Assembly (NCBI GenBank): GCA_001769505.1
Contig: MEOF01000017.1
Coordinates: 1-55,202, forward strand
Direction: 5' to 3'
Length of the DNA: 55,202 nucleotides
Source: Bacteroidetes bacterium GWF2_33_38
Lineage (GTDB): Bacteria; Bacteroidota; Bacteroidia; Bacteroidales; GWF2-33-38
The position numbers and the translations under genes are program-made. Below are positions 29,597 to 55,202 of this stretch, in pieces; position 1 is the stretch's first letter, and every line of letters begins with the position of its first letter. Under the pieces are notes generated by a model, which made no database searches, had not been told where the DNA came from, and saw only the letters and a list, made by a program, of their open reading frames with translations.

Positions 29597-29690
29597 TAAT
29601 TCACATAATTAAAACAATAGTTCGTTCGCAACTTAATTATTTATTAGATTAAACCCGAAGAAATTCGTACACGAAAATAATTAATGATAC

Positions 29691-29743
29691 TAGGGTTTAT
29701 ACCGAATAATTTTTTTCTAAAAAATTATTCGGTATAAACCCTA
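29691..29743. terminator. Perfect 25-bp inverted repeat, hairpin
   Basis: TAGGGTTTATACCGAATAA plus six T (29691-29715) is perfectly complementary to 29719-29743 across a 3-base loop. It lies 95 bases after the TIGR03915 stop and could end that transcript, though the arms carry their A/T runs at the loop side rather than as a trailing U-tract. A repeat or element remnant is the alternative. Confidence 0.5.
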
Positions 29744-29820
29744 ATACAAATAGTAAGACAAAACATTTCCGTATCAAGAGTTGAATTACTGTGTATTTGT
29801 AAAAACATTTGAAGGAAATT

Positions 29821-30281: not shown

Positions 30282-32282
30282 ATGAACGATTTACAACTTT
30301 TTTTTCTTTCATTATTTTTCTTACCAATTGGGTGGATACTAATTGCATTCTTACCAAGTAACAAAAAATCGTATGCAAATATATTTTTTGTAGCATTAAC
30401 AGTTGCTTTAACTTCAATTCCGTCAATAAATGTTTTGATGGGGAAAGAATTTCAATACGTTTTTCCAACGATTAAGTTTTTTGGCGAAATTCCCTTGCGA
30501 ATAGACACACTTTCGGCTTGGTTTATTTTAATAATTAATTTCACAAGCTTAACTGGAGCGATTTATGGCTCTGGATATATGAAACCATATTCTGAACAAA
30601 AATCAAATTTAAGTTTTCATTGGATACAATATTTATTGTTTCATTCGTCGATGATTTGGGTCTGTGTTGTGCAAAATAGTTTAGTTTTTTTGATTGTCTG
30701 GGAATTAATGTCGCTTTCGTCGTTGATGTTAGTAATGTTTGATTATCAAAATAATAAAACAATAAAAGCTGGGTTGAATTATCTGGTTCAGATGCATATT
30801 GGAGTTGCATTTTTATCGATTGCGTTTATTTGGATTTATTTTGCTGAAGGTTCATTGGATTTTATTTACATTAAAGAATTTTTCATTAAAAATTCAAATA
30901 TTTGGCTTTTTCTATTGTTTTTTGTTGGATTTGGAATTAAAGCAGGTTTTATTCCCTTGCATTCGTGGTTGCCACATGCACATCCCGCAGCACCATCACA
31001 TATTTCAGGTGTAATGTCGGGCGTAATCGTAAAAGTTGGAATTTATGGTATTTTCAGAATGATTACTTTTTTGCAACAAGATTACTTAATAATTGGTCAA
31101 ATTGTACTGGGATTATCGCTATCGACAGGATTATACGGAATAATTAATTCTGCTGTTCATCGCGATTTCAAAAAAATGTTGGCATATTGTACTATCGAAA
31201 ATATTGGAATTATTGGTTCTGGAGTAGGTTTAGGTTTGATTGGAATTGGAACTCAAAATCCAATTTTGGTAATTCTAGGATTTTCAGGGGCTTTATTGCA
31301 CACACTAAATCACTCATTATTTAAATCATTATTATTCTTTTCGGCGGGCTCAGTTTATCAGCAAACTCATACAAAAGATATGGAAAAATTGGGTGGTTTG
31401 ATTAAAAATATGCCACAAACTGCATTTTTATTTATCATTGGAGCATTGTCTATTGGGGGTTTGCCTCCTTTCAATGGCTTTGTTTCTGAATTTATTCTTT
31501 ATCAAGGATTTTTGAATGGAATGGGAAGTTCTAATTTTTATCAAACATTTTTTATGATTATGTCGATTGCCGCTTTTGCTATAATTGGAGGCATTTCGAT
31601 GTTTGCATTTACCAAAAGCGTTGGAGTTATATTTCTTGGAAGTCCTCGATATGAGTTACACGCTAAGCCTAAAGAAGTTTCACTAATGATGCGTTTACCA
31701 CAATATTTTATTGTTGCGATTATGCTATCAATCGGCATTTTTCCTGCTTTTTATATCAATTTGGTTTTGAATGTTATTTCAGGCACTTTTACCGAGTATA
31801 GTATTTTACCTTCAAATTTTTATTCCGATTATTTTAGCGTTACAACATCAATCGGAAGATATTCATTACTATTAATTGCCTTGATTGCCATTGTTTATTT
31901 TATCAGAAGCAACATTGAAAAAAGAAAATCATCGCTAGTTTCTTCAACTTGGGGTTGTGGTTATGTTGCTCCAAATGTTTCGATGCAATATACTGGAAAA
32001 TCGTATTCAAAAACATTGGGAAAATTGCTAAGCACGGTAGTTTTTGAACGAAAAAAATACAAAGAAATTAAAGATACTGAGATATTTCCAAATGAGCGGA
32101 CGCATTCAGCTTTTTATACAGATTTTTTTGAATTTCGATTTATCGATAACTTTATAAATAGATTTCTGTATTTTATGGATTTGTTTCAATTTATCCAAAA
32201 CGGAAGATTGCAACAATACATCTTGTATGGATTACTGTTTATTATTGTAGTCTTTTTAGGAACTTATTTAGGTATTATTTAA
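30282..32282 (+). CDS. HyfB/NuoL-type antiporter-like membrane subunit, first copy
   Basis: This 666-residue polytopic protein belongs to the proton-conducting membrane transporter family of complex I and group 4 hydrogenases. Key features are the TM5 glutamate in WELMSLSS (about residue 141), the TM7 lysine and HxxxLP helix GFGIKAGFIPLHSWLP with the following HAHPAAPSHISGVMSG, and the LNHSLFKSLLFFSAGSVY segment. The C-terminal TWGCGYVAPN motif is the HyfB-specific extension. All residues expected for proton translocation are visible, so the subunit should be functional. It opens a seven-gene operon; its stop overlaps the start of a second HyfB-like gene by one base (TAATG). Confidence 0.92.
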   Translation: MNDLQLFFLSLFFLPIGWILIAFLPSNKKSYANIFFVALTVALTSIPSINVLMGKEFQYVFPTIKFFGEIPLRIDTLSAWFILIINFTSLTGAIYGSGYMKPYSEQKSNLSFHWIQYLLFHSSMIWVCVVQNSLVFLIVWELMSLSSLMLVMFDYQNNKTIKAGLNYLVQMHIGVAFLSIAFIWIYFAEGSLDFIYIKEFFIKNSNIWLFLLFFVGFGIKAGFIPLHSWLPHAHPAAPSHISGVMSGVIVKVGIYGIFRMITFLQQDYLIIGQIVLGLSLSTGLYGIINSAVHRDFKKMLAYCTIENIGIIGSGVGLGLIGIGTQNPILVILGFSGALLHTLNHSLFKSLLFFSAGSVYQQTHTKDMEKLGGLIKNMPQTAFLFIIGALSIGGLPPFNGFVSEFILYQGFLNGMGSSNFYQTFFMIMSIAAFAIIGGISMFAFTKSVGVIFLGSPRYELHAKPKEVSLMMRLPQYFIVAIMLSIGIFPAFYINLVLNVISGTFTEYSILPSNFYSDYFSVTTSIGRYSLLLIALIAIVYFIRSNIEKRKSSLVSSTWGCGYVAPNVSMQYTGKSYSKTLGKLLSTVVFERKKYKEIKDTEIFPNERTHSAFYTDFFEFRFIDNFINRFLYFMDLFQFIQNGRLQQYILYGLLFIIVVFLGTYLGII

Positions 32283-34300
32283 TGTTATATTTTTATCTAT
32301 ACATATTAATCGTTCTAATTTCAATCCCTACAATTGGATTGCTTTCGGCAAAAAATAAAGGAATTGCAGTTATCATATCTGTGGTTTTACTAAGTACTGT
32401 AAGCAGTATTCTATCGATAAATGCTTTATCGGGAAATTCAACAACCATATTTTTGTATGGTTCAATAGTTACAAAAACTATCAATTTAGTAATTGACCCT
32501 ATAGCAGCGTGGTTTATTCTTACCATAAATTTCACATTTATTACAGGAGCTATTTATGGAAGCAATTATATGAAAGTTTACGAACAACAAACATCGAAAC
32601 TTTCACTGCATTGGATTAGTTATATTTTTACTCATTCGGCTTTAATTGCGGTTTGTGTGCTACAAAATACATTTGTTTTTCTTATTGCTTGGGAAATTAT
32701 GGCAGTTGGAGCATTTTTCCTCGTAATATTCGAAAGTAACAAAAGTCACACGATTAGTGCAGGTATAAATTATCTAATACAATCACATATTGCAATTATT
32801 TTACTTACCATTGGATTTGTTTGGGTTTATGCAGAAACAGGTTCGTTTAACTTCGATGCCATTAGTGAATTTGCCAAAACTCAATCGAATTTATACAGTT
32901 TCATTTTAATGATAATTTTATTTACAGGATTTGGAATTAAAGCTGGTTTTGTTCCCTTACACACTTGGCTGCCCCATGCACATCCTGCAGCTCCAACTCA
33001 CATTTCAGCCGTCATGTCTGGGGTAATCATTAAAATTGGAATTTACGGAATTATTCGTATGATTTTTTTACTTCAAGTAAATTATTTATTGGTTGGATAT
33101 TTTATTCTTTTCATATCTGTAATTACAGGAATATATGGTGTAATGTTGGCAATTTTACAACATAATTTAAAAAAACTTTTAGCTTATCACAGTGTCGAAA
33201 ACATTGGAATTATTGGAATTGGAATTGGAATTGGTTGTATTGGAATGGGTTACGGAAATACACTTATGTCGGTTCTTGGATTTTCAGGAGCTTTGTTGCA
33301 CACATTAAATCATTCGTTATTTAAATCGCTTTTGTTTTTTGGTGCTGGAAATGTATATCAATCAACACATTCGTTGAATATTGACCGTTTTGGTGGTTTA
33401 ATTAAAAAAATGCCACATACAGCATTTCTATTTTTAATTGCTTCGCTTGCAATTTGCGGACTTCCTCCCTTTAATGGTTTTGTTTCAGAATTTATTATTT
33501 ATTCCGGTTTGCTTGATGGACTTCAACAAACAAGTTTTCCATATTTATTGCCATTTATAATTTCAATACTTGGATTGGCGTTGATTGGTGGACTTGCAAT
33601 GCTCTGCTTTACAAAAGCATTCGGGATGATTTTCTTGGGTTCGCCTCGTCATGAATTTGAACACGAAGTTGAAGAAAGCCACATTCTTAAAAGAATCCCG
33701 ATGTATTTAATTCTTGCATTAATTGTATTGATTGGTATTTTTCCACAATGGTTTATAAATTCTCTTTCGTTAGCTGTTGCACAATTAACAAGTATTAAAA
33801 CAACAGTTCCTAAATCAATCAATGTAAATTTAATTGAGACAATAGAAATTATTGGTCGAAATTCAATTGCACTTATTTTATTATCAATTTTTATTTACTC
33901 AATTCGAAATAGAATAATATCTAAAAAGCAAATTACACACAATACAACATGGGGTTGTGGTTATATTGCTCCTACAGAAAAAATGCAATACACCGCAAGC
34001 TCATATATTCGAGCTTATCGAAAACTTGCCGAACCGTTGCTTTCAATCACAAAACACAAGAAAAATGTACAAGGTATTTTTCCCGATAAAGCCAAACACG
34101 AAACGCATTCAAATGATGGAATTGAAGAAATAATACACTGGCCTATTCAAAGACTTCGTTATTTCTTAGATACTTTTTCGTTGTTGCAAAAAGGGAAATT
34201 ACAACTATACATTTTATATGGAATGATATTTATTTTAACCTTAATTATCATTCCTTTAACAATCTATATATATGAATTATTTATCCATTTTTTAAATTAA
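32282..34300 (+). CDS. HyfB/NuoL-type antiporter-like membrane subunit, second copy
   Basis: This 672-residue paralogue of the preceding gene has the same landmarks: WEIMAVGAF with the TM5 Glu, GFGIKAGFVPLHTWLP with the TM7 Lys, HAHPAAPTHISAVMSG and LNHSLFKSLLFFGAGNVY. It also keeps the C-terminal TWGCGYIAPT motif. The two are clearly tandem duplicates that have since diverged. The start ATG overlaps the previous stop by one base. HyfC follows after 9 bases. Together with the HyfF-like gene at 35871 the complex would have three antiporter-like subunits. Confidence 0.92.
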   Translation: MLYFYLYILIVLISIPTIGLLSAKNKGIAVIISVVLLSTVSSILSINALSGNSTTIFLYGSIVTKTINLVIDPIAAWFILTINFTFITGAIYGSNYMKVYEQQTSKLSLHWISYIFTHSALIAVCVLQNTFVFLIAWEIMAVGAFFLVIFESNKSHTISAGINYLIQSHIAIILLTIGFVWVYAETGSFNFDAISEFAKTQSNLYSFILMIILFTGFGIKAGFVPLHTWLPHAHPAAPTHISAVMSGVIIKIGIYGIIRMIFLLQVNYLLVGYFILFISVITGIYGVMLAILQHNLKKLLAYHSVENIGIIGIGIGIGCIGMGYGNTLMSVLGFSGALLHTLNHSLFKSLLFFGAGNVYQSTHSLNIDRFGGLIKKMPHTAFLFLIASLAICGLPPFNGFVSEFIIYSGLLDGLQQTSFPYLLPFIISILGLALIGGLAMLCFTKAFGMIFLGSPRHEFEHEVEESHILKRIPMYLILALIVLIGIFPQWFINSLSLAVAQLTSIKTTVPKSINVNLIETIEIIGRNSIALILLSIFIYSIRNRIISKKQITHNTTWGCGYIAPTEKMQYTASSYIRAYRKLAEPLLSITKHKKNVQGIFPDKAKHETHSNDGIEEIIHWPIQRLRYFLDTFSLLQKGKLQLYILYGMIFILTLIIIPLTIYIYELFIHFLN

Positions 34301-34309
34301 TTTAAAATT

Positions 34310-35212
34310 ATGTTGAGTTTTATATTGGTTATATTGGTAAGTTTTGTTTTCACAGGAGTTGTAATTAGAACCAAAAGTATTGCTTCAGGGAGAAAAGGTC
34401 CTGGGATTATGCAGCCAATGAAAGATATTTATCGTTTATTTCGGAAGGGTGCTGTATATAGCGAAACTACCAGTATAATTTTTCAAATTGCACCAACCAT
34501 TTATTTTTCATCGGTTGTAATGGCGATAATGGTTTTGCCATTCGGTCATACAAGAGGACTTATTTCTTTTAATGGTGATTTTATTTTTTTTGCATATGTG
34601 TTGGCCTTGGGTAAATTTTTCAGCATTATTGCTGCCCTTGATACAGGAAGTAGTTTTGAAGGAATGGGAGCCAGCCGCGAAGCATTGTTTTCGATGTTAG
34701 TTGAGCCAGCATTCTTTATTTTAATTGGTTCACTTGGAATACTTACAGGCTATACATCTTTTCACGAAATATTTATGACCTTCCATTTCTCAACCTATAT
34801 CACGTATGCAATTGGAGTTCTTGTAACCTTTGTTTTAGCAATGATTTGTATGATTGAAAATAGTCGTATGCCTGTTGACGATCCAAAAACTCACCTCGAA
34901 TTAACAATGATTCACGAAGTAATGATTCTTGATAATAGTGGTTTTGATTTAGGGTTAATTTTACAAACAACGAATTTAAAATTTGCAATGTATGGAGCAT
35001 TGATTGCAAACCTTTTCATGGGAAATTTAGTTTGGTACTTTACAATTCCTTTGTTCTTCATGTTTCAATTTTTGTTTGCTATAACGGTAGGTATACTCGA
35101 ATCGTTTTCAGCAAGATTTAGAATGAGTCATAATGCACAATTTATACTTGTACTTTCATCTATCTCGTTACTGGTTTTCTTTGTTATATTAATGATAATG
35201 AATAAATTTTAA
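34310..35212 (+). CDS. NuoH/HyfC-like membrane anchor subunit
   Basis: This 300-residue membrane protein is homologous to complex I NuoH and hydrogenase-4 HyfC/HycD, the subunit that links the soluble arm with the membrane arm. Recognisable parts are RKGPGIMQPMKDIYRLFRKG, the DTGSSFEGMGASREALFS region and the acidic loop ENSRMPVDDPKTHLELTMIHE, which in complex I contributes to quinone-side proton transfer. The acidic residues are intact. Position and length are normal for HyfC. Confidence 0.92.
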   Translation: MLSFILVILVSFVFTGVVIRTKSIASGRKGPGIMQPMKDIYRLFRKGAVYSETTSIIFQIAPTIYFSSVVMAIMVLPFGHTRGLISFNGDFIFFAYVLALGKFFSIIAALDTGSSFEGMGASREALFSMLVEPAFFILIGSLGILTGYTSFHEIFMTFHFSTYITYAIGVLVTFVLAMICMIENSRMPVDDPKTHLELTMIHEVMILDNSGFDLGLILQTTNLKFAMYGALIANLFMGNLVWYFTIPLFFMFQFLFAITVGILESFSARFRMSHNAQFILVLSSISLLVFFVILMIMNKF

Positions 35213-35228
35213 TTAAAATATACTGATT

Positions 35229-35858
35229 ATGATAAATATACTTCTCATCGTTTTCACTATAACGCTTTTATATTTCGTAATTGCTAATCGATTAATAACT
35301 TATGTTAACATCTTAGCTTTTCAAGGCGTTTTATTGTTTGGAGTTGCATTTTTTGAACTCCATGAAATCAATCTAGTAAATCTTATTTTCATTTTATTAG
35401 AAACTTTAGTGATAAAAACATTTGCAATCCCAATGTTTCTAAGATATGTAATCAAGAAAAATAATATTACTCGAGAAGCGGAACCTTACCTCCCAAATTT
35501 TGCGTCCCTAATTATTGTAACATTGATTATTGTAACCACATTTGTTGTGTCAAATGTAATAAACGACCCTCATTTAAATAAAATATATTTTGTTGTTGCA
35601 TTGTCAACATTATTCAGTGGATTATATTTTATAACAACGAGAAAAAAAATTGTTACACACGTAATTTGCTATGTGATAATCGAAAATGGCGTTTTCATAC
35701 TTTCACTTGCTGTTGGAGCCGAAATGCCGTTACTTGTAAATTTGGGAATTTTGCTCGATGTTTTTGTCAGTGTGTTTTTATTGGGAATTTTCATTAACAA
35801 AATTGGAGATGTAATGCAAGAAATGGATATTTCGGAACTAAACAAATTAAAAGATTAA
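35229..35858 (+). CDS. HyfE-like membrane subunit
   Basis: This 209-residue protein has about six hydrophobic segments and is placed between the HyfC-like and HyfF-like genes, as hyfE is in hydrogenase-4 operons. HyfE corresponds to a fusion of a small membrane domain with NuoK-like helices; here the segment ENGVFILSLAVGAEMPLLVNLGILLDVF matches that conserved NuoK-like part (an acidic residue in the membrane helix, GILLDVF). The rest is only weakly diagnostic, so the call rests partly on position. Confidence 0.85.
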   Translation: MINILLIVFTITLLYFVIANRLITYVNILAFQGVLLFGVAFFELHEINLVNLIFILLETLVIKTFAIPMFLRYVIKKNNITREAEPYLPNFASLIIVTLIIVTTFVVSNVINDPHLNKIYFVVALSTLFSGLYFITTRKKIVTHVICYVIIENGVFILSLAVGAEMPLLVNLGILLDVFVSVFLLGIFINKIGDVMQEMDISELNKLKD

Positions 35859-35870
35859 AAAATTAAGGCT

Positions 35871-37298
35871 ATGATTTTAATATATTTAATAGGAACATTT
35901 TTAATTAGTATTTCGTTATTTTTCAATAGAATAACAGCCGTTAGAAAAGCATTAGTAATGTTGTTTTTAATTCTACAATGGGCATTTACATATTATGAGT
36001 TTACTCATAAAGGAATTACTGAATTTAATTATTTTAAACCCGATGCAATAGCAATTCTTTTACTGTTTACTATTAGCATTATCAGCGTTCCTGCATTGTT
36101 GCATAGTTACGATTATATTTACAAAGAAAAAGATAATCGAAAAGCACGAACCATATACTACATCGCCATGATTTTCTTAATCATGGCACTAAGTGCAGCT
36201 TATGTTTCATCGCATATTGCAGTAACTTGGATTTTTGTCGAAATTACTACACTAAGTGCCTCTGCATTAATTTTTCATCGTCGAAATGCAGGTTCAATCG
36301 AAGCAACATGGAAATATATTTTTGTTTGCTCAATAAGTATTATGTTTGTATTTATTGGGATTCTCTTCTTAAGTATTGCATTAGGAACTTCAAACGACGA
36401 TAGTTTACATTATGACAGTCTTCTTACACTCGCACCATCGCTTAATCCATTTTGGTTACGACTTGCATTCATTTTTATATTTGTAGGATACACCGCCAAA
36501 CTAGGTTTAGTGCCAATGTACACAGCGGGAATTGATGCAAAAGATAAAGCCCCTACCCCTGCTGCAGCTTTATTCTCGAGCGTATTAATGAATGTTGGCT
36601 TTATCGGATTCTTTAGATTTTATGAAATTATCGCACATACTTCACTCCATTCATGGGCAAATCATGTTGTTATGATTGCCGCATTTTTATCAATATTTGT
36701 AGCTACGGTTTATGTATTGAAAGTAAAAAACATGAAACGGATGTTAGCGTATTCAAGCATCGAACACATGGGTTTAATCATGCTCGGAATTGCGGTTGGA
36801 GGAATTGGGTATTATGCAGCAATTTTACATCTAATCTTGCATTCTTTTGCTAAGTCAGCTCTATTCTTTCAAATAGGGCATATTTATAAAGTTTACCATA
36901 CAAAAAACATTTACTATTTAGGAAATTATTTCAAATACAATTTATCGGGAGCTTTGTTTTTATTATTGGCATTTATTTGTGTAACTGCAATGCCTCCGTC
37001 AGGATTGTTTGTAAGTGAATTCTACATCTTTAAAGCAATGTTTGCGGCAAACTATGTTTATGTTTTAATTCCTGTTTTGATATTGCTTACTTTTATTATT
37101 TGGACGTTTGCTAAAAATTTCTTTAAAATAGTGTTTATTTCTCCTGTTGATTTTGATGAAACTCAAATTCAAAAAATTAATCACTTCGAAACAGTTTCGC
37201 AGTATGCCTTACTTGCATTAGTAATATATTTAGGACTAAATCCTCCTGTATTTTTTGATAATTTAATTAACGAAGCCATAAAAAATTTAATATTCTAA
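35871..37298 (+). CDS. HyfF-like antiporter-type membrane subunit (NuoN/NuoL family)
   Basis: This is the third antiporter-like subunit, 475 residues. It has WIFVEITTLSASALIF with the TM5 Glu, then GYTAKLGLVPMYTAGIDAKDKAPTPAA with the TM7 Lys and the loop that in HyfF replaces the HAHPAAPS loop of HyfB, and KNMKRMLAYSSIEHMGLIMLG. The His-containing HLILHSFAKSALFFQIGHIY segment completes the set. It lies 12 bases after the HyfE-like gene and one base before the large-subunit gene. Confidence 0.92.
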   Translation: MILIYLIGTFLISISLFFNRITAVRKALVMLFLILQWAFTYYEFTHKGITEFNYFKPDAIAILLLFTISIISVPALLHSYDYIYKEKDNRKARTIYYIAMIFLIMALSAAYVSSHIAVTWIFVEITTLSASALIFHRRNAGSIEATWKYIFVCSISIMFVFIGILFLSIALGTSNDDSLHYDSLLTLAPSLNPFWLRLAFIFIFVGYTAKLGLVPMYTAGIDAKDKAPTPAAALFSSVLMNVGFIGFFRFYEIIAHTSLHSWANHVVMIAAFLSIFVATVYVLKVKNMKRMLAYSSIEHMGLIMLGIAVGGIGYYAAILHLILHSFAKSALFFQIGHIYKVYHTKNIYYLGNYFKYNLSGALFLLLAFICVTAMPPSGLFVSEFYIFKAMFAANYVYVLIPVLILLTFIIWTFAKNFFKIVFISPVDFDETQIQKINHFETVSQYALLALVIYLGLNPPVFFDNLINEAIKNLIF

Positions 37299-37299
37299 T

Positions 37300-38799
37300 A
37301 TGGAATTTTTAACAATACAAAATAATCAAAGAGTTGATATTTCGTCAATACCCGTGCTACAGTATGAAGATTTTTCATCATTCATTATTGATTTAATAAA
37401 TGATAATGATAACCATTGCGTAAATTATTATGGATATCAAGACAATAATCAGATTAAACTAATTTGTTGTATAGCCAACGATACGCAGCATGTCATTTAT
37501 GTAACATCTTCAATAGTTGATAAAAATTCTGAATTGAATTCAATTTCTAAAAAACATCTCTCATTTGAAAAATTTGAAAGAGAAATTCACGAAAATTTCG
37601 GAATTAATTTTATTGGTCATCCTTGGTTAAAGCCAGTTAGGTACGCATTTAATAGAGCCGATAAAACAAAAACAATTGCCAATTATCCATTTTATACTAT
37701 TGAAAGTGAAGAACTACACCAAGTAGGTGTTGGTCCGATTCATGCCGGAGTGATTGAACCCGGACATTTTCGGTTTATTTGCAATGGCGAACAAATTCTA
37801 CATCTCGAAATACAACTAGGATATCAACACAGGGGAATTGAAGAATTATTTCTACAAAAGAAAGAACTAATTCAACGAGCAACTCTCGCTGAAAATATTG
37901 CAGGCGACACCGTTGTAGGTCATTCAGTCGCATTTGCAAATGCATGGGAAAGTTTATGCGATTATACTCCTTCCGAAGCTTTACAATTTGATAGAGCCTT
38001 GGCTTTAGAACACGAACGAATTGCAATTCACACAGGCGATTTGAGTGCAATATGTGCCGATATTGCCTATCAACTTGGAAATTCAGTTTTGGGAAGGTTG
38101 CGAACTCCAGTAATTAATTATTTTCAACAATGGTGTGGGAATAGGTTAGCCAAAAGCTTAATTCGACCTTTTAAAACCAACTTTCCGTACAACGAATACT
38201 TATCAGAAAAATGGTTTGAAGTTTTTGATGCTTTCTTGCCTGATTTTAATGAAATATGCGAACAAATATTTGATTTGCCGTCAGCATTATCACGACTTGA
38301 AAAAACAGGAGTTGTTAAAACAGAAGTTGCTGCTGAAATTGGAATGGTTGGAGTAGCAGCTAGAGCAAGTAATTTTAATCGAGATATTCGATTTTCGCAT
38401 CCATTTGGTTATTATAAAAACGAATCGTTCAATTCAATTATGGGAAAAAATGGCGATGTTTATTCTCGTTCAAAAATTAGAATGGATGAGGCAAATCAAT
38501 CAATATCTTTCATTAAAGAAATGTTGAAAAAAATTCCAAATCACGAAATTCAAGAAGGAGAAATCATAAATGAACCAAAACCTAATTCATTTGTTGTTTC
38601 ATTAGTTGAAGGTTGGCGTGGAGAAATTTGTCATTGTGCCATTACTGACGAAAAAGGAGAATTAAAACACTACAAAATTAAAGATCCATCATTCCACAAT
38701 TGGCTTGCATTAGCACTTTCGGTTAGAAACGAAGGAATTTCTGATTTTCCGGTTTGTAATAAAAGTTTCAACCTTTCATATTGTGGACACGATTTATAA
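37300..38799 (+). CDS. NuoCD/HyfG-like large subunit lacking the NiFe-binding cysteines
   Basis: This 499-residue soluble subunit has a NuoC-like N-terminal part (about 1-145) fused to a NuoD/hydrogenase-large-subunit part (EPGHFRF, LGYQHRGIEELF). In NiFe hydrogenases the N-terminal motif is ICGxCxxxHS; here it reads AENIAGDTVVGHS near residue 205, with Ala and Thr in place of the two Cys. The C-terminal DPCxxC is replaced by NLSYCGHDL: the two ligand positions carry Ser493 and Gly496, and the single Cys495 is between them. No NiFe centre can be bound in the standard way, and no maturation genes are in the window. The subunit is thus complex I-like or Ehr-like, not a hydrogenase. Confidence 0.93.
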   Translation: MEFLTIQNNQRVDISSIPVLQYEDFSSFIIDLINDNDNHCVNYYGYQDNNQIKLICCIANDTQHVIYVTSSIVDKNSELNSISKKHLSFEKFEREIHENFGINFIGHPWLKPVRYAFNRADKTKTIANYPFYTIESEELHQVGVGPIHAGVIEPGHFRFICNGEQILHLEIQLGYQHRGIEELFLQKKELIQRATLAENIAGDTVVGHSVAFANAWESLCDYTPSEALQFDRALALEHERIAIHTGDLSAICADIAYQLGNSVLGRLRTPVINYFQQWCGNRLAKSLIRPFKTNFPYNEYLSEKWFEVFDAFLPDFNEICEQIFDLPSALSRLEKTGVVKTEVAAEIGMVGVAARASNFNRDIRFSHPFGYYKNESFNSIMGKNGDVYSRSKIRMDEANQSISFIKEMLKKIPNHEIQEGEIINEPKPNSFVVSLVEGWRGEICHCAITDEKGELKHYKIKDPSFHNWLALALSVRNEGISDFPVCNKSFNLSYCGHDL

Positions 38800-38810
38800 A
38801 AACGAAGAAT

Positions 38811-39560
38811 ATGTTCAATAATTTTAAAATATTATACCATCAAGGAAAACAATTTATTCCTGATGTTACCACGGTAGAAGTTCCGGGAATTTTTAGAGGA
38901 AGACCTATCATAAGTACAGAATCGGTTGATGTAAAAAAACTTCAAAGCGTTTGTCCAACAAAAGCAATTGGCGAAAATCCCGTTAGTATCGACATGGGAA
39001 AATGCACATTTTGTGGTGCATGTAGCATTGCATTTCCGACTAAAATTAAATTTACAAAAGATTACAAAACGGCATCAAACGAAAGAGAAAATCTTATTGT
39101 TTACGAAGGAGTTGAGACTCCCATAAAATTTGACCCCAATAAAACTCGAAAAGAAATTCACTCATTATTCAAAAACTCTTTAAAATTAAGACAAATTTCA
39201 GCCGCTGGAGACAATAGTTGCGAGTGGGAATTAAACGCAGCAGGTAACGTAAATTTCGATATGGGGCGTTTTGGAGTTGAATTTGTAGCTTCGCCTCGAC
39301 ATGCCGATGGAATTGTAATTACTGGTCCAATAAGTGAAAACATGGCAGAACCACTTAAGATTTGTTACGATGCAACTCCTAGTCCGAAAGTAATTATCTT
39401 AGCAGGAACTGATGCAATCAGCGGTGGAATTTTTAACGAAAGTCCGGCTTTAAATAGAAATTTTTTAAACAATTATAAAATTGATTTGTATTTACCTGGA
39501 AATCCTACGCATCCTTTAACTATTATTAATGGTATTCTGGGTTTAATCGGAAAAAAATAA
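38811..39560 (+). CDS. Ferredoxin-NuoB (HyfH/HyfI) fusion subunit with a reduced cluster set
   Basis: This 249-residue soluble subunit starts at 38811 (MFNNFKILYHQGKQF), 11 bases after the large-subunit stop. Residues 1-80 correspond to HyfH: GIFRGRP, then Cys48-Pro, and Cys65, Cys68, Cys71 with Phe75 in place of the fourth Cys before Pro76. Cys48 with 65/68/71 makes one complete [4Fe-4S] site; the other cluster is gone. Residues 125-249 are NuoB/HyfI-like (FGVEFVASPRHADGIVITGP). Of the proximal-cluster ligands only Cys137 remains; Asp134 (in DNSCEW), Asp201 (GTDAISGG) and Asn231 (LPGNPT) replace the others. The electron path is therefore shortened to a single ferredoxin-type cluster. Confidence 0.9.
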   Translation: MFNNFKILYHQGKQFIPDVTTVEVPGIFRGRPIISTESVDVKKLQSVCPTKAIGENPVSIDMGKCTFCGACSIAFPTKIKFTKDYKTASNERENLIVYEGVETPIKFDPNKTRKEIHSLFKNSLKLRQISAAGDNSCEWELNAAGNVNFDMGRFGVEFVASPRHADGIVITGPISENMAEPLKICYDATPSPKVIILAGTDAISGGIFNESPALNRNFLNNYKIDLYLPGNPTHPLTIINGILGLIGKK

Positions 39561-44298: not shown

Positions 44299-47200
44299 CT
44301 ATTTTCTCATTATCAGTATTCGTTTTGCAATGTATTGTTTCCCTGCATTTACACGGAACATATAAACACCCTCAACTGCATTACTTAAATCTATTGTTAT
44401 TTTTCCCTCGTTATCGGATTGCTTTTCAGAGATGAAAACAAGTTCTCCAATCATGTTGTATACTTCGACCATAATTTCAGAATTGTTTTTCAAATCGAAT
44501 GAAACATTTACAATTCCTTTAGATGGATTTGGGAAAAATTTAACATAATTACTCAAATCACTAGGATTGACATATGAAATAGGGAATGTAACAAAATATG
44601 TTTCAGAAATCATACAACCATTTTCGTCTGTCATGGTTACGGAATATTCGCCTGATTCAAGATTGTAAATATCCTCAGTAGTTTCAAAGTTACTCCATTG
44701 ATATGTCATCATAAAACCGGAGTTTGTAGTAACATCTATAGAGCCGTCTGCACAGTTAACGCAACTAGAATTTTGAATAATTGTATCGGTAACTTCAAAA
44801 TCAGCCTGATATCCAATTTCATAGTTCTCGATATCAGTACAACCATTAACATCGGTTGCTGTTACTGAGTAATTACCAAATACTACATATGAAATATCTT
44901 GAGTAGTATATCCATTCGACCATTGATATGTAAACGGAGCATCGCCTCCTTGTACGGAAATATTTATTGATCCATATCCCCAACCACAATAATCGTTTTG
45001 AATATCATCTAGCAACACAAACATATTCCCTTGAGTATTTTGAATTGTTATTGATTCTGATTGACTACAACCCGAATTATCTGTAACTGTATATGTATAA
45101 ACTCCCTCGCTCAAGCCTGATATATTTTGTTCAGTTTCACCATTGCTCCATTCAATTAAATATGGAGCAACTCCTCCAGAAATTACCAAATTAATACTGC
45201 CTTGAGAATTGCTACATATTTCGTTAGTTGAAGTGAAAATTACTTCTAAGCCATTTGTTAAATTCTGAATAGTATAACTTCCAAAAACATTACAATCAAC
45301 ATTATCCGTAACAGTAACATCATACACACCTGAATATATAGATGTCAAATCTTGTGAAACAGCTCCATTGCTCCATAAATATGTATATGGAGAACTTCCT
45401 CCTGAAATAGAAATATCAATTGCTCCGGCATTATTTCCACAATATGTTTCGGTAATGTTGACATTACTTATATCTAAAGTCCCAGCAATATTTTCAACTG
45501 TGTTTGTTTCAATTATTTGGCAGCCAAAATTATCTGTAATACTTACAGTATATTCACCTGCTGTAATATTTATAATGTCTTCGGTATTAGCTCCGTTGCT
45601 CCACAAATAAGTATATGGCAAACTTCCTCCCGAAACAGAAATATCTATCGAACCATTATAATTTCCACAATTATCATCAATAGTGTTTACTGACAAAATA
45701 TTGAAGTTCCCAGTTGAGTTATTTACTGTGATTGACGTGCTGTATGTACAACCATTTGATTCGGTAATGGTTAATTCATAATCTCCTGCATCTAAATTTG
45801 ATAAATGATTTGTGCTAGATGGAGTAAACTCACAAGAAGTTGTTCCCGAGTATATAGGACCAACAGAAGGCGAAGGACCATCGCTAAATACAACATCTCC
45901 GCTTGAATTTAATAATTCGTAGCTATTTTCTTCATCCCAAGAGCCTGATGAATAATTCAATTCGATGACATCTCCATTACACACGTCAAATGTTTCGGTT
46001 GAACCATTACCAACGGCATAAAATGTTCCCATCGATTCGCTATTAATTACAACTTCTAAATATCCTCCATTCCAATCGTCGCCAAATGAATCAAACATTT
46101 GAAGAGTGTAACTACAGCAAGGAGAAGTGATTGTTTGAGACCATTCGTAAATATAAGGAGTTGTTCCACCTGTGGCAATTACGGTAATTGCTCCTTCAGA
46201 ATTATCGCATATTTCGTCGGTTACATCTAGCGAAATAATTGAAATCGTTCCAGAGTCATTTAAGGTAATTGTTTCATGTGTTGAACAACTGGTTGCATCG
46301 GTAACTGTAACAGTATATAATCCTCCTATAACGTTTGTAAGGTCTTCAGTTGTTGTTCCATTACTCCAAATAATAACATATGGAGCAGAACCTCCTGTTA
46401 CTGTTAGATTTATTGCTCCGTCATTATTTCCACAGAAAGCTTCAGTAGTTGTGCTTGACAATGATAATCCATTGGTTTGATTAGTTACGGTGAAATTATC
46501 TTGTATTACACAACCACTTGCATCGGTAACTGTAATTTGATAGTCTCCCGACAAAATATTATTTAAGTCCTCAGTAGTAGCTCCATTGTTCCATGATATT
46601 ACAAAAGGTGTTTCATCTCCAAGTATTGTTACATCTATTGCTCCGGTCAAACTTCCGCAATATGTATCGGTAATAGAACTGATACCAAAAGCTAGTGTCC
46701 CTAAGTTGTTTACAATAGTAACTGTTTCTTCGAGCATACAATAGTTGTCATCGTAAATAGTTACAGTATAGATTCCAGATGATAATCCACTTAAATTTTG
46801 AGTATTAGCTCCATTACTCCAATAATATTGATAAGGTTCCAATCCTCCTGATACACTTAAGTCAATTGAACCCGAATTATTGTTGCAATATTCATCAACT
46901 TTATCTACAGATGAAACTACAAATCCATTAGTGCTGTTCAATACAATTGCCGAATCGCTTGCATAACATCCATTTGCATCAGTAACAGTTACGCTATATT
47001 CTCCTGCACTTATATATTCAATATAACTTGAATTCGGAAGGCTTATCTCACAAGTAGATGTACCTGAGTAGATTAATCCTTCACTAGGACTTGGACCTGA
47101 GTACAATATCCAATTCCCTTGAACATCAAGAAGGTACACATAATTATCCTCGTCATTACTACCACTTGTGTAATATAATTTTAAATCATCGTTTGTGCAT

Positions 47201-50200
47201 ACAGGAATGGTTACATATATATAAGAACCAGAAGTTAGCGTGTAAGTTCCTATCGAAACATCGTTAACCTGAACATCAACATAACTACCAATCCATCCAT
47301 CACCATTTACATCGTATAAATACATGCCATAACTGCAACATGAAGAGTTCGCCATTTGCCATTCATACGAGTATGGATAACTTCCACCTGAAGCAGAAAC
47401 ACTTATTGAACCATTTGAATTACCGCAATATTCGTCGGTTACATTCATTGAATTTATAACAACTCCTGTATTGGTACTTAAATTAATTGTTTCGTTTGTC
47501 ATACAAGAAGTTGCATCAGTAACTGTAACGACGTATGTTCCTCCAGAAATATTTGTAAGGTCTTCTGTTGTTGAGTTGTTGCTCCATAAAACAGAATATG
47601 GAAGCACTCCTCCTGAAATAGTCATGTCAATTGAAGCATCGCTATTACCACAAGTCGGTTGAGTTTCAACAAAAGCTAGGCTAAGTCCATTGGTTTGATT
47701 AACTACGATAAAAGTATCTTGAATTTGACACCCGGTATTGTCGGTAATTGTAACAATATACGAACCTGAAACAATATTCGATAAATCTTCAGTGGTTTCC
47801 CCATTACTCCAAGAATATGTAAATGGAATAGATAATCCCGTTGCTGTTATATCAATGCCTCCTGTATTATCTCCACAATATGTATCGTTTATCGAAAAAG
47901 CTCCAAAAGCAAGTGTACCTGGATCATTGTTAACAAGAATCGTTTCTTCAAGTTTACAATAGTATGAATCGTAAATAGTTACGGTGTATGTTCCCTGTGA
48001 AATACCTGACAAGTTCTGAGATGTTTCGCCATTGCTCCAATAGTACATATATGGTTGTTCTCCTCCTGTGACTCCAATACTAATTGTACCTGTTCCACTA
48101 TTACAATAATCGTCGGTTTTTATAATTGACGTTATTTCAAATCCATTTGTATTATTAATTACTGTAGCAGTATCGCTATCTACACAACCATTTGCATCAG
48201 TTATGGTAACAGCGTAAACACCTTCGCTTAAACCATAAATACTACTAGAAGAAGGAAAACTTGTGCTACAAGAAGTTGTACCGGAATATAAAAATCCATT
48301 GTTCGGATATGGACCTACGTCGTACACAATATTTCCCGAAATATCAACAAGATAAATATAATTATCAGCCCCATCAGAAACTTCATTGTAATTTAATTGA
48401 ATAACATCGTCGGTACATATCGGAATATTAAATGTAGTACTAAAATCAGTAAATAATGTATATGTTCCGAGTATAGTTCCATTTATTAGAACCTCCACCG
48501 AACTTCCATTCCAGCCATCGCTAGATAAATCGTACAAATACAAATAATAATCGCAACATGTTGAGTTTTCGGCCAATGCCCACTGATAATTGTAAGGATA
48601 GTCCCCTCCTGACGCAATAGCACTAATTGAACCATCTGAGTTTCCACAATTTTCGTCAGTAACATTCATTGATGAAATATTTACGCTGCTTGTTCCACTC
48701 AAAACTATAGTTTCTGTCGCAATACAAGAGGTTGAATCGCTTACAGAAACAGAATAAGTTCCTGCAAATAAATTTAATATATCTTCCGTAACTGCTCCAT
48801 TATCCCAATATATTGAGTACGGTGAAAATCCTCCTGATATACTCATATCTATTTCTCCATCGTTATTTCCACACATTGGTTGGATTTCTGTAAAATCAAG
48901 ACTTAATCCATTTGTTTGATTGATGATTTCAAACGACTCGATAATTGAACATCCGCTTGCATCGGTAATTGTAACAATGTATGAGCCAGAATTAACATTG
49001 GATAAATCTTCAGTTGTTGCTCCATTATTCCATAAAAAGCTAATAGGAACTTCGTCGCCGTATACGGTAATATCAATTGCTCCATTTGAACTACCACAAT
49101 AAGTATCATCAACCATCGCAGTGTCATAACCAAGAGTCCCTGTATTATTTAAAATTTCATATGTTCCTGATATTTGGCAACCATTAGCATCAGTAACAAA
49201 TACGGTGTAAGTTCCAGATGCAAGTCCCGATATATCTTGACTTGTGCTTCCATTGCTCCAAATATATTGATAAGAGGGGCTTCCTCCTACAACTGTTATA
49301 TTTACAGCCCCAATATTACTATTACAAAAATCATTAGTAACAACATTCGATGAAATAGTAAAGCCACCGGAATTATTGTCAATAGTTGCCGAAGCAGATG
49401 TATTACAACCATAAAAGTCAGTAATTTCTACAGAATAATCACCGGCACCAAGATTTGTTAAAACATTTGAATTCGGTGGATTAAAAGTGCATGAAGAAAC
49501 TCCCGAATATGAGTTTCCATTCATAGGATAAGGTCCGTCTGAAAATACGGTTTCTCCGTTTGAATTTACCAATGAATACGAAACATTACTATCATCATAT
49601 CCTGAATAGAAATTCAGTCCGATAATATCTCCTGTACATACAGGAATATTTTCTATTAAATTGCCTCCATAGGTTGTAAAATAGTTAATTATTTCACCAT
49701 TTACTGATACCCCGACGTAGGCATAATTCCAACCATATCCATAGTTATCGTATAATTCAAGAGTATAATCGCAACACGAAACACTAGTATTTGTCGACCA
49801 TTCATACTGATATGGTTGTGTACCTCCGCTTACAATTATTTCAATCCCCCCTTGTGTATTTCCACAATTTTCGTCGGCAATATTTACAGCCGAAACCTCA
49901 ACGGCTCCCGAAGAAGCCACATTATAGGTTTGATTAAGGTAACAGCCTGTTGCATCTTCAACAAAGACCGTATAATTTCCGGATGATAAATTTATTAAAT
50001 CTTCATTGGTAGTCCCGTTGTTCCATGTATATGTGTAAGGAGTTGTTCCTCCTGTTATGGTTATATCTACAGCTCCATTTGATGCTCCACACAATGCCAT
50101 TGTTGTAGCTCCTGAAGCCGTAAGATTTCCTGCATCGTTTTGAATTACAGTTGAATAATTGAGTTCGCATCCAAGATTATCTGTAGCCGTACACGAATAA

Positions 50201-53200
50201 ATACCCGAAGGTAATGATGAAATATTTTGAGTTAAACTTCCATTGTTCCATATGTATGATATTGGTAAAGCTCCTCCTGATAATGATACATTTATAGAAC
50301 CATTATTACTGCCGCATGAAGCATCGCTTTCGCTTATAGAAACAAGTGCAAAATTTCCCGAATTATCATTTATTGTTAAGACATTTGTTTGAATGCTACA
50401 ACCGGTATTATCGGTTGTTGTCAAAGTATAATCACCAGATGATAGTGATGAAATATTTTGAGTTGAAGAACCATTGCTCCACGAAAATAAATACGGAGCA
50501 GAACCTCCCGAAATTGCCAAATTTATACTTCCATTATTGTTTCCACAAACTTCATCTACAATCTGAATATTCGAATATGCTAATGTTCCTGAGGATTCTC
50601 CCACAAAATAATTTCCGGTAACAGTACAATTTCCGGCATCGCTCACGGTAACTTGATAATAATCCGATGTAAGCCCTGATATATCTTGTGTTACAGCAGC
50701 ATTCGACCACAAATATGTCAAAGGATTAACGCCTCCGTTTACACTTATATCGATTGCACCATTACTATTTCCACAGTTTTCATTTGAAATAATTGGGTTA
50801 GAAATTGACATTAACCCAGCACTATTGTTAATCAAAATATTTCCTATACTCACGCTACACCCTGAATTATCGCTAATGGTACAAGAATAAACAGCTGCCG
50901 ATAAATTACTTATATCTTCAGTAATTGAACCATTGCTCCAAGAATATGTATATGGTAGCACTCCTCCTGTTAATGAAATATTAATCGCGCCATTTGCGGC
51001 ACCGCATACTTCATTGCTCATAGATTGAATTTCAACATTAAGATTTCCTGCTTGATTACTTACTTGTGTTGAACCACTAACTAAACAACCTTGAGAATCT
51101 TCAACGCTCACGGCATAAATTCCTGAATTCAACAGGTTTAAATCTTCAGTATTGTTTCCTGAAGACCAAGAATATGTGATAGGATTCAACCCTCCACTTA
51201 TAATTAGATTTATACTTCCCGTTCCATTTCCACAAATCTCATCTGTTACAACAAAATTTTCTATATTTAAAGAACCTTGTTCATTTTGAACATTTGCATT
51301 TACCGTAAAATAACAGCCTACTGAATCGGAAACATAGCAAGAATAAGCCCCTTCTGAAAGGTTAAATAAATTTTGTGAAACTGAGCCCGTATTCCAACAA
51401 AATGTATAAGGAGTTGTACCTCCGCTAATGTCTATCTGAACAGAACCCAATCCATTTGAACAAATTTCATTAATACTTGAAACAGATTCTAGAACTAATG
51501 TTCCTGGAACATTTATAACATTAACATTTCCGGTTGTAATTGAACATCCCAAATTATCGGTAATTGTTCCGGAATATGTTCCTGCCGATAGATTATAAAT
51601 ATTTTGAGTAGTAGCTCCATTTGACCAATAATAAATGTAAGGTGTAGCACCTCCGCTAACGAGAATTTTAATTTCTCCTTCGTCGTTTTCACACACTTCA
51701 TTTTTCGCATTGATATAAGTAAAAGCCATTGTTCCAGAATTATTGCCAACAATGTATTCCGGAGTTATAAGATCACAATCGCTACCATCAGTTATCGTAC
51801 AAGTGTACCCCCCCGGTAAAACCCCTATCAAATCTTGTGAATTCGCTCCATTTGACCAATGGTATGAAATAGGATAATTACCACCTGAAATATTTATGTC
51901 AATCGAACCATTTGCTTGTCCACAATCTGAATTCATTGCATTTCCATAAACCAACTCAAGTGTTCCTGTGTTGTTGTTAACTTCATACGTTTCGTGTATT
52001 GCACACAAGTTCGCATCGGTTAACGTTAGGCTATATATTCCTGAATTTAGATTAATTAAATCTTGACTTGTAGCTCCATTCGACCAATTATAATAATATG
52101 GTTGAACTCCTCCTGACGGCGTAATATCAATTCCCCCGCTTGCATTTCCACATAATTCATCATTTATAGAAACGCTACTTATTGCTAGTGAACCTACCAA
52201 ATTACTTACAATGAATGACTGATTTACGATACAATTTTCAGCATCTGTAATAGTAACATCATAGCTTCCTTCTCCAATTCCAGTAAGGTCTTCAGTATTT
52301 GCACCATTATTCCAAGCTACTAAGTAAGGTAAATTTGTTGTATAAATATCGAGTTGAACACTTCCATTTGCGTTTCCACAAATTTCATCAGTTGAGGTAA
52401 CATTTTGAATTGCTAAATCACAATCAGGAATACAATCTCCAACCAAATTTATAACATTGTATGATGATGCTTTAGTACACATATTTGCATCACTTACCGT
52501 AACATTATAAACTCCTTGTTGTAAACCATCAATATCTTGAGTAGTAAAAGAGTTTGACCAAATATAAGTATATGGAGAAACACCCCCAATAACCGATAAA
52601 TCAACGACTCCATCAATATTTCCACATGATTCATTCGTTATTGTACTAGAAACAAATAATGGATTTGCAGCTAAAATTTCAAAGTTTGAAGCACTTACGC
52701 AACCTGAAAAATCAGAAATTTGAACACTATAATTACCAGGATTGAGCGAATTAACATCTTCTGTTGTTTGTCCCGACGACCATAAATAAGAATACGGAGG
52801 AGTTCCACCTGTCAATGTTAAACTAATGCTTCCATTATTAGCATCAACGCATGTTTCATTTGATACGCTTGATGATATTGATGCAGCACTACTATTTGGG
52901 AGACTGAATGTCTTGATAAATGTACACCCCAAAGCATCAGTAACTGTAACATTATGAGAACCTGCTGGTACGTTGGAAATATTTTGAGTAGTGGCTCCAT
53001 TGCTCCAATTATAAGTAAAAGGAGAATTTCCTCCGATAATCGTAAGACTTATTGCACCATTGTTAGAACCACATGAAGGAAGAGTTGTTGCTCCTGTGAT
53101 TTCAGGCTCCGATGGCTGAGTCAATGTGATTATAGAATCTGGACGATCTGCCGCAATGCTGATACTCCAATTAAAAATATATCCGTTATTATTCGGAATT

Positions 53201-55008: not shown

Positions 55009-55202
55009 AGATGAATGGAGTTTATATAACGACATATCAATTATTTACAAAGTAATTAACAATATAAAGTTAGTAAAAAAAATATTATTACCAATTCAAA
55101 ACTAATATAAGTTCTATAGTTCGTTCAACTCATATATAACTCCCCTGTTTCAATATGAGCATAAAATACCCCATCCCTTATTTTAGGGCAAATTATGCGG
55201 CA

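Follow-up and report, generated by a model that had tools for sequence, protein, structure and literature searches.

Replacement of the N2 cluster ligands by Asp, Asp, and Asn in a Bacteroidota branch of Ehr-type complexes

In Bacteroidetes bacterium GWF2_33_38, an Ehr-type (hydrogenase-4-like) operon of seven genes ends with one that encodes a ferredoxin domain fused to a NuoB-like domain in which three of the four cysteine ligands of the proximal cluster (N2 in complex I) have been replaced. The operon (30282–39560, forward strand) is located in a stretch of DNA of 55,202 nucleotides, referred to here as the window. As judged from alignments and trees, we show that N2 was lost once in the Bacteroidota branch of the window and that three of the four ligand positions are now fixed as Asp, Asp, and Asn. 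This clade-wide replacement of N2 is a new variant of Ehr complexes.

Translation of the small-subunit gene confirmed every residue listed in the initial annotation (C48, C65, C68, C71, F75, D134, C137, C185, D201, and N231), including a single set of ferredoxin-type ligands. The ATG at 38811 is likely to be the start codon because the alignments of relatives begin at residue 1; an alternative longer ORF with a TTG start runs into the upstream gene. Pfam detected Oxidored_q6 (3e-19, residues 136–243) and Fer4 (1e-4, residues 59–73). HMMER alignments with MbhJ (6cfw_J, 2e-23) and HycG (7z0s_G, 2e-17) placed D134, C137, D201, and N231 opposite the four N2 cysteines of both proteins, in agreement with the proposal that the N2 ligands are gone save C137. 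In the ferredoxin domain, C48 corresponds to the fourth Cys of motif I and C65, C68, and C71 to the first three of motif II. We take this set to hold the equivalent of N6b, the cluster closer to N2 in complex I; the outer ferredoxin-type cluster (N6a) is absent. The fold was confirmed by a Foldseek search with the predicted structure, the best match being 6cfw_J. The mean pLDDT was 61, with values below 50 at residues 132–162, 201–209, and 229–233, which form the former ligand loops.

Table 1. Features of the Ehr-type operon in the window.
Feature	Position	Strand	Basis
HyfB-like antiporter-type subunit, first copy, operon start	30282..32282	+	homology, residues
HyfB-like antiporter-type subunit, second copy	32282..34300	+	homology, residues
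HyfC/NuoH-like membrane subunit; D39/E132/D190/E197 present	34310..35212	+	Pfam, residues
HyfE-like membrane subunit	35229..35858	+	homology
HyfF-like antiporter-type subunit; key E124/K148/K210/H324/E383 present	35871..37298	+	homology, residues
HyfG/NuoCD-like large subunit without NiFe cysteine; HRGxE motif retained (H177-R178-G179-x-E181)	37300..38799	+	Pfam, alignment
H39-C40 and C56-C57 of the NuoC-like domain; Cys enriched in N2-less branch	37414..37470	+	row comparison
C444-H445-C446 adjoining the RGE motif; C444/C446 enriched in N2-less branch	38629..38637	+	row comparison
HyfH-HyfI-like fusion of 249 aa, joining a one-cluster ferredoxin domain to a NuoB-like domain without N2 ligands	38811..39560	+	translation, Pfam, alignment
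Codons C48, C65, C68, C71, ligands of the sole ferredoxin-type [4Fe-4S] cluster	38952..39023	+	translation, relatives
D134-N-S-C137, former CxxC of the N2 site	39210..39221	+	alignment, relatives
D201, former third N2 cysteine	39411..39413	+	alignment, relatives
N231, former fourth N2 cysteine; PGCP to PGNP	39501..39503	+	alignment, relatives

A scan of genome contigs provided 280 pattern matches and 203 relatives, of which 80 (66–77% identical, mostly labelled Bacteroidetes or its lower groups) were kept. Counts refer to the 82 aligned rows less the window and the copy from its own genome. The ferredoxin set C48/C65/C68/C71, D134, and C137 were each present in 80/80 relatives, D201 in 78 (Glu in the other two), and N231 in 79 (Tyr in one). 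F75 was variable (Phe in 68, Cys in 10, Tyr in 2) and C185 was not strictly conserved (73/80, with Ala in 7). The near-invariance of the residues at the ligand positions indicates that the D/C/D/N pattern is not due to chance. The site was initially described as a destroyed cluster. The loss of the ligands stands, but decay does not, since Asp, Asp, and Asn are fixed throughout the branch: conservation of the former ligand positions indicates that the N2 site was replaced rather than destroyed.

Fused relatives with an intact N2 site (48–59% identity) were found mostly in genomes of the phylum outside the order of the window; a relative from a Variovorax plasmid (47% identity) also keeps the four N2 cysteines. 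We compared 95 N2-less rows (including the window, some identical pairs, and one fragment) with 22 rows of N2-intact fused Ehr sisters, all of which have the four N2 cysteines, using thresholds of 93% and 90% for fixed differences and excluding the distant plasmid and phylum relatives. The only columns fixed differently between N2-intact and N2-less rows were Cys to D134, Cys to D201, and Cys to N231. The ferredoxin cysteines were present in 94 of the 95 N2-less rows, the remaining row being the fragment. This comparison did not bear out the view that Phe75 abolishes the second ferredoxin cluster, since this position is Cys in 12/95 N2-less and 13/22 N2-intact rows and neither group has a complete first cysteine triad. 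Nor does C185, put forward as a residue that might complete a proximal cluster, qualify for this role: it is Ala or Thr in 10/86 N2-less rows and Cys in 10/22 N2-intact rows. As to whether the loss is general in Ehr-type relatives or special to this organism, it is neither, marking a single Bacteroidota branch whose 22 sister rows are N2-intact. At the N2-intact loci (L130–L146, L166–L169, and L084), a 223-aa gene lies directly upstream of the operon in 17/22 cases. Its product was read by eye as a helix-turn-helix and PTS EIIA-like protein and is not a feature of N2-less loci. A gene for a SulP-type transporter is located upstream in 4 of the 22.

Searches for ligand sets covered Bacteroidota genomes and plasmids. 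In the phylum, 283/395 genomes matched, mostly by the NuoB part alone, with 15 full-length matches at ≥50% identity; 17/60 close-relative genomes matched. In the order, 141/247 genomes matched a related query, many by the NuoB part alone, and 57 of the 247 did so at E ≤1.5e-29, including one N2-intact genome and the odd genome G516 (see below). Besides G516, 29 relatives from the order with loci were scored, of which 22 were new. The pattern D-[C/A]-[D/E]-N was found in 21/22 new genomes and CCCC in the remaining one, an N2-intact sister (51.6% identical to P0001); none of the 22 had a mixed set. C137 was also lost in the N2-less loci L152–L155 and in the new loci L221 and L223, with replacement by Ala, Gly, or Asn. 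Thus, the sets DADN, DGDN, and DNDN have no cysteine of the N2 site left.

In a tree of the small subunit (69 rows), the N2-less rows of the Bacteroidota formed a single clade (support 100/97) with N2-intact L130 as its sister (97/89). The N2 state required three changes on this tree, even if strongly supported branches alone were counted. A quick tree of the large subunit also required three changes, with weak support for the N2-less clade (81). The other two N2-less rows (TDES in Meiothermus silvanus, NDDA in Mycobacterium branderi) sit on long branches and their placement is unsure. N2 was lost at least two further times, on the Meiothermus and Mycobacterium plasmids. Outside the tree, the G516 relative (L170, contig C386) encodes a small subunit of 177 aa with the set DCDD and without the ferredoxin part; no CxxCxxC motif was found in any frame of the contig (8370 bases, six subunit genes). 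The six-gene Ehr-like complex of G516 is thus possibly devoid of any Fe-S centre, a case seen in 1 of 247 genomes. An acidic residue is present at position 134 or 137, and another at 201, in all four N2-less lineages seen.

The membrane arm has largely retained its key charged residues. Both HyfB-like copies (B1 and B2) keep E141/E138, K220, H340, H344, and K348 in 34/34 homologs each. The residues E124, K148, and K210 of the HyfF-like subunit and E132, D190, and E197 of the HyfC-like subunit are likewise kept in 34/34 homologs. The HyfC-like subunit has no equivalents of E36, D79, and E241 of complex-I NuoH, and K193/H195 occupy the positions of NuoH E216/E218. An association between N2 loss and the extra HyfB copy was rejected, as the N2-less loci L149, L150, and L152–L154 show a single HyfB in the stretch searched. 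By eye, no ORF for an NADH-binding NuoEFG module adjoined the operon in the window. Neighbours recurring at N2-less loci, both typed by eye, were a divergent Crp/Fnr-type gene and, at distances that vary, an RNA-polymerase sigma-like gene, each in 7 loci; no other conserved neighbour recurred in more than five of these loci. In the gap that separates the operon from the upstream gene, a hairpin (29688–29746, 28 nt, 96% complementary, 3-nt loop) is perhaps a terminator; sub-threshold hits of microRNA families from Rfam at 29678–29754 were attributed to chance similarity of a hairpin. Elsewhere in the window, the reverse strand (44299–55035) encodes a 3578-aa repeat protein that, by eye, looks secreted and has a sorting-like C-terminal end.

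In the large subunit (predicted structure with pLDDT of 87.6), the four NiFe ligand positions are occupied by A201, T204, S493, and G496. The Arg of the HRGxE motif (R178) is conserved in 84/85 N2-less rows and is Lys in the other. Residues of the former active site (D203, H208, D254, N487-K488-S489, S493, and G496) are identical in 85/85 N2-less and 21/21 N2-intact rows, indicating that the former NiFe cavity was not remodelled upon loss of N2. A second-sphere Arg preceding the first NiFe Cys was discarded as a partner lost with N2, the position being Ser or Thr already in the N2-intact sisters. Several cysteines are enriched in N2-less relative to N2-intact rows: C40 (84/86 versus 1/22), C57 (80/86 versus 0/22), C252 (83/86 versus 0/22), C444 (85/86 versus 2/22), and C446 (79/86 versus 2/22). 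If Cys or His is counted, the exceptions among the 86 N2-less rows are 1 for C40, 3 for C252, 1 for C444, and 7 for C446.

The assertion that a complex lacking both N2 and NiFe cannot run standard electron transfer holds: in the available part of PMC8042128, Yarrowia complex I devoid of N2 assembles, yet its quinone reduction is abolished. The same source offers a counterpoint, since complex I variants at another Arg seemingly lack N2 and keep partial quinone activity. Since charged positions along the ion pathways are conserved, we infer that the complex is a working ion-translocating machine. We give an even chance to the reading that the window encodes an ion-translocating Ehr-type complex whose drive would not come from electrons passing through N2, with the Asp/Asp/Asn set as a redox-silent plug. 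Such a plug would maintain the negative charge formerly supplied by the cluster and would hold the retained R178 engaged, the HRGxE Arg being located 3.7 Å from N2 in complex I (available part of PMC8042128). Ions would then be moved without electron flow via N2, and the remaining N6b-like cluster could be structural or serve as a redox sensor or gate. The plug is deduced by homology, at loops for which the predicted structure is poor (pLDDT <50).

Retention of the ferredoxin cysteines in 94/95 rows suggests that their cluster does something, perhaps of a redox nature, and thereby counts against a silent plug. So do C40, C56, C57, C252, C444, and C446 of the large subunit, which could form a new centre. 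Both observations favor a rewired redox enzyme, the chief alternative, which we nevertheless regard as rather unlikely. Electrons from the N6b-like cluster would reach a substrate or cofactor bound by Asp/Asp/Asn in the vacated N2 pocket, which presumably lies within tunnelling range of N6b, or a new metal centre built from H39 (86/86 N2-less rows), C40, C56, C57, C252, C444, H445, and C446, and ions would still be driven. However, no set of four cysteines is universal among the 86 rows; of the seven cysteines listed for the large subunit, L152 and L154 have only two and three, respectively. N2-intact L130 already has H39, C40, and C56, the neighbourhood contains no visible electron-input gene, and no dehydrogenase was seen among the families (typed by eye) that recur beside the operon. 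Electrons would also be slow to jump straight from N6b into the former NiFe cavity, at about 1 per s according to a tunnelling estimate for which we assumed a distance of 22 Å.

We consider it improbable that D134, D201, and N231, with or without C137, bind a mononuclear metal or a partly Asp-ligated Fe-S centre at the N2 position. The three residues are nearly invariant and Asp-ligated [4Fe-4S] clusters exist, as in Pyrococcus ferredoxin. The proximal cluster of MBS has three cysteines only, according to the accessible text of PMC7684303. Against such a site, some members are devoid of cysteine at all four positions (DADN, DGDN, and DNDN), and independent losses carry differing sets (TDES, NDDA, and DCDD), indicating that there is no common metal geometry. 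A degenerate, non-functional relic, as loss of both catalytic centres might suggest, is scarcely credible in view of 57–77% identity across many families, a complete operon, and retention of key residues in the subunits tested.

The large subunit is group 4 [NiFe] hydrogenase-like and has no Ni-Fe cysteines, which defines Ehr in the portions seen of PMC10284858 and PMC6349859, and the genes for HyfB/C/E/F-like membrane subunits and for the large and small subunits form one operon. Ehr complexes of Geobacter, Nitrospira, and Margulisbacteria share the HyfB/C/E/F/G/I-like set and the lack of NiFe cysteines; their function is described as unknown or as merely proposed in the available parts of PMC10284858, PMC6349859, and PMC7894505. 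The N2-intact Ehr-type sisters keep four N2 cysteines, unlike the branch of the window, in a comparison that leaves the proteins of these three groups outside. Our literature search turned up no Ehr complex with transport, spectroscopic, or knockout data. Nor did it find, among titles and the beginnings of abstracts, a description of an N2-less Ehr complex, the defining paper (Marreiros 2013) being beyond its reach. The complex has neither the four NiFe cysteines nor the four-Cys proximal cluster of group 4 [NiFe] hydrogenases. It resembles E. coli hydrogenase-4 and formate hydrogenlyase (HyfBCEFGHI, HycBCDEFG) in gene order and subunit homology but has no NiFe, no N2, and one ferredoxin-type cluster instead of two; HyfH and HyfI are fused, HyfB is present twice, HyfA and HyfD are missing, and, in comparison with formate hydrogenlyase, there is no adjoining formate dehydrogenase. 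Respiratory complex I (NuoBCD/NuoI/NuoHLMN) is similar in fold, in the HRGxE motif, and in most residues of the membrane proton path, whereas N2, N6a, and the NADH module are absent here. Pyrococcus MBS (sulfane sulfur reductase) has also lost NiFe and has a non-standard proximal cluster. In the accessible text of PMC7684303, however, this [4Fe-4S] cluster is held by three cysteines and used catalytically; MBS retains two of the four NiFe cysteines, whereas the branch of the window has one or no proximal cysteine, no ligand set for such a cluster, and no NiFe cysteine. Mrp multisubunit cation/H+ antiporters would be comparable in having ion-moving membrane subunits without redox input, but they lack a peripheral arm, which is represented here by the NuoCD-like and the fused NuoI/B-like subunits.

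Fluoride riboswitches were detected in distant kin. In 4 of the 7 loci searched, the motif was located directly upstream of the related operon on plasmids of Caballeronia (L086, 4887–4957, genes placed by tblastn) and Burkholderia (L088, 4884–4954; L174, 3909–3979), and upstream of a NUDIX gene leading into the operon of N2-less Mycobacterium branderi (L087, 4621–4694). L086 and L088 are N2-intact, and neither L087 nor L088 has the full Cys set at the NiFe positions. The part seen of PMC11139923 lists formate hydrogenlyase with the genes most often found under fluoride riboswitches and emphasises Na+/H+ antiporters in the response to fluoride; the genes labelled formate hydrogenlyase may in part encode NiFe-less Ehr-type complexes. 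The link fits a role of the family in ion homeostasis but does not extend to the window: control of its operon by this riboswitch was discarded, Rfam giving no match, and no fluoride riboswitch was found in 15 Bacteroidota loci, with no hit in 8 and tRNA alone in the other 7. The genome of the window also encodes a complex-I NuoB of 230 aa (G000:C62, L104) with the motif GTGCGSIEI, which lacks the tandem CC and leaves three N2 cysteines. This CG form is shared by G535, G528, and G521; the other NuoB rows have CC, bar one hydrogenase-type row. A separate [NiFe] hydrogenase operon (G000:C10, L103) has intact CGIC and DPCLSC motifs, indicating that the genome encodes a real Ni-Fe enzyme elsewhere.

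At least three losses of N2 in Ehr complexes, acidic replacements each time, and one fragmentary case possibly without an Fe-S subunit lead us to suggest, tentatively and with more doubt than confidence, that nature has cut the electron wire of a complex-I-type machine whose peripheral arm is complete, ions being moved by conformational or ligand coupling. Relatives carry the labels NADH dehydrogenase or formate hydrogenlyase, which calls for caution in annotation. The coupling between electron transfer at N2 and distant ion movement in the membrane arm is an old question of complex I. The N2-less branch, which has kept the membrane arm and the former active-site cavity, and its sisters, which differ from it at three fixed positions of the small subunit, constitute a natural mutant series. 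If the proposal is true, the machinery coupling the peripheral and membrane arms works, or was re-used, without a redox driver. The N2-less complex, carried by a widespread branch of anaerobic bacteria, would be a natural test of whether complex-I-like machines need electrons.
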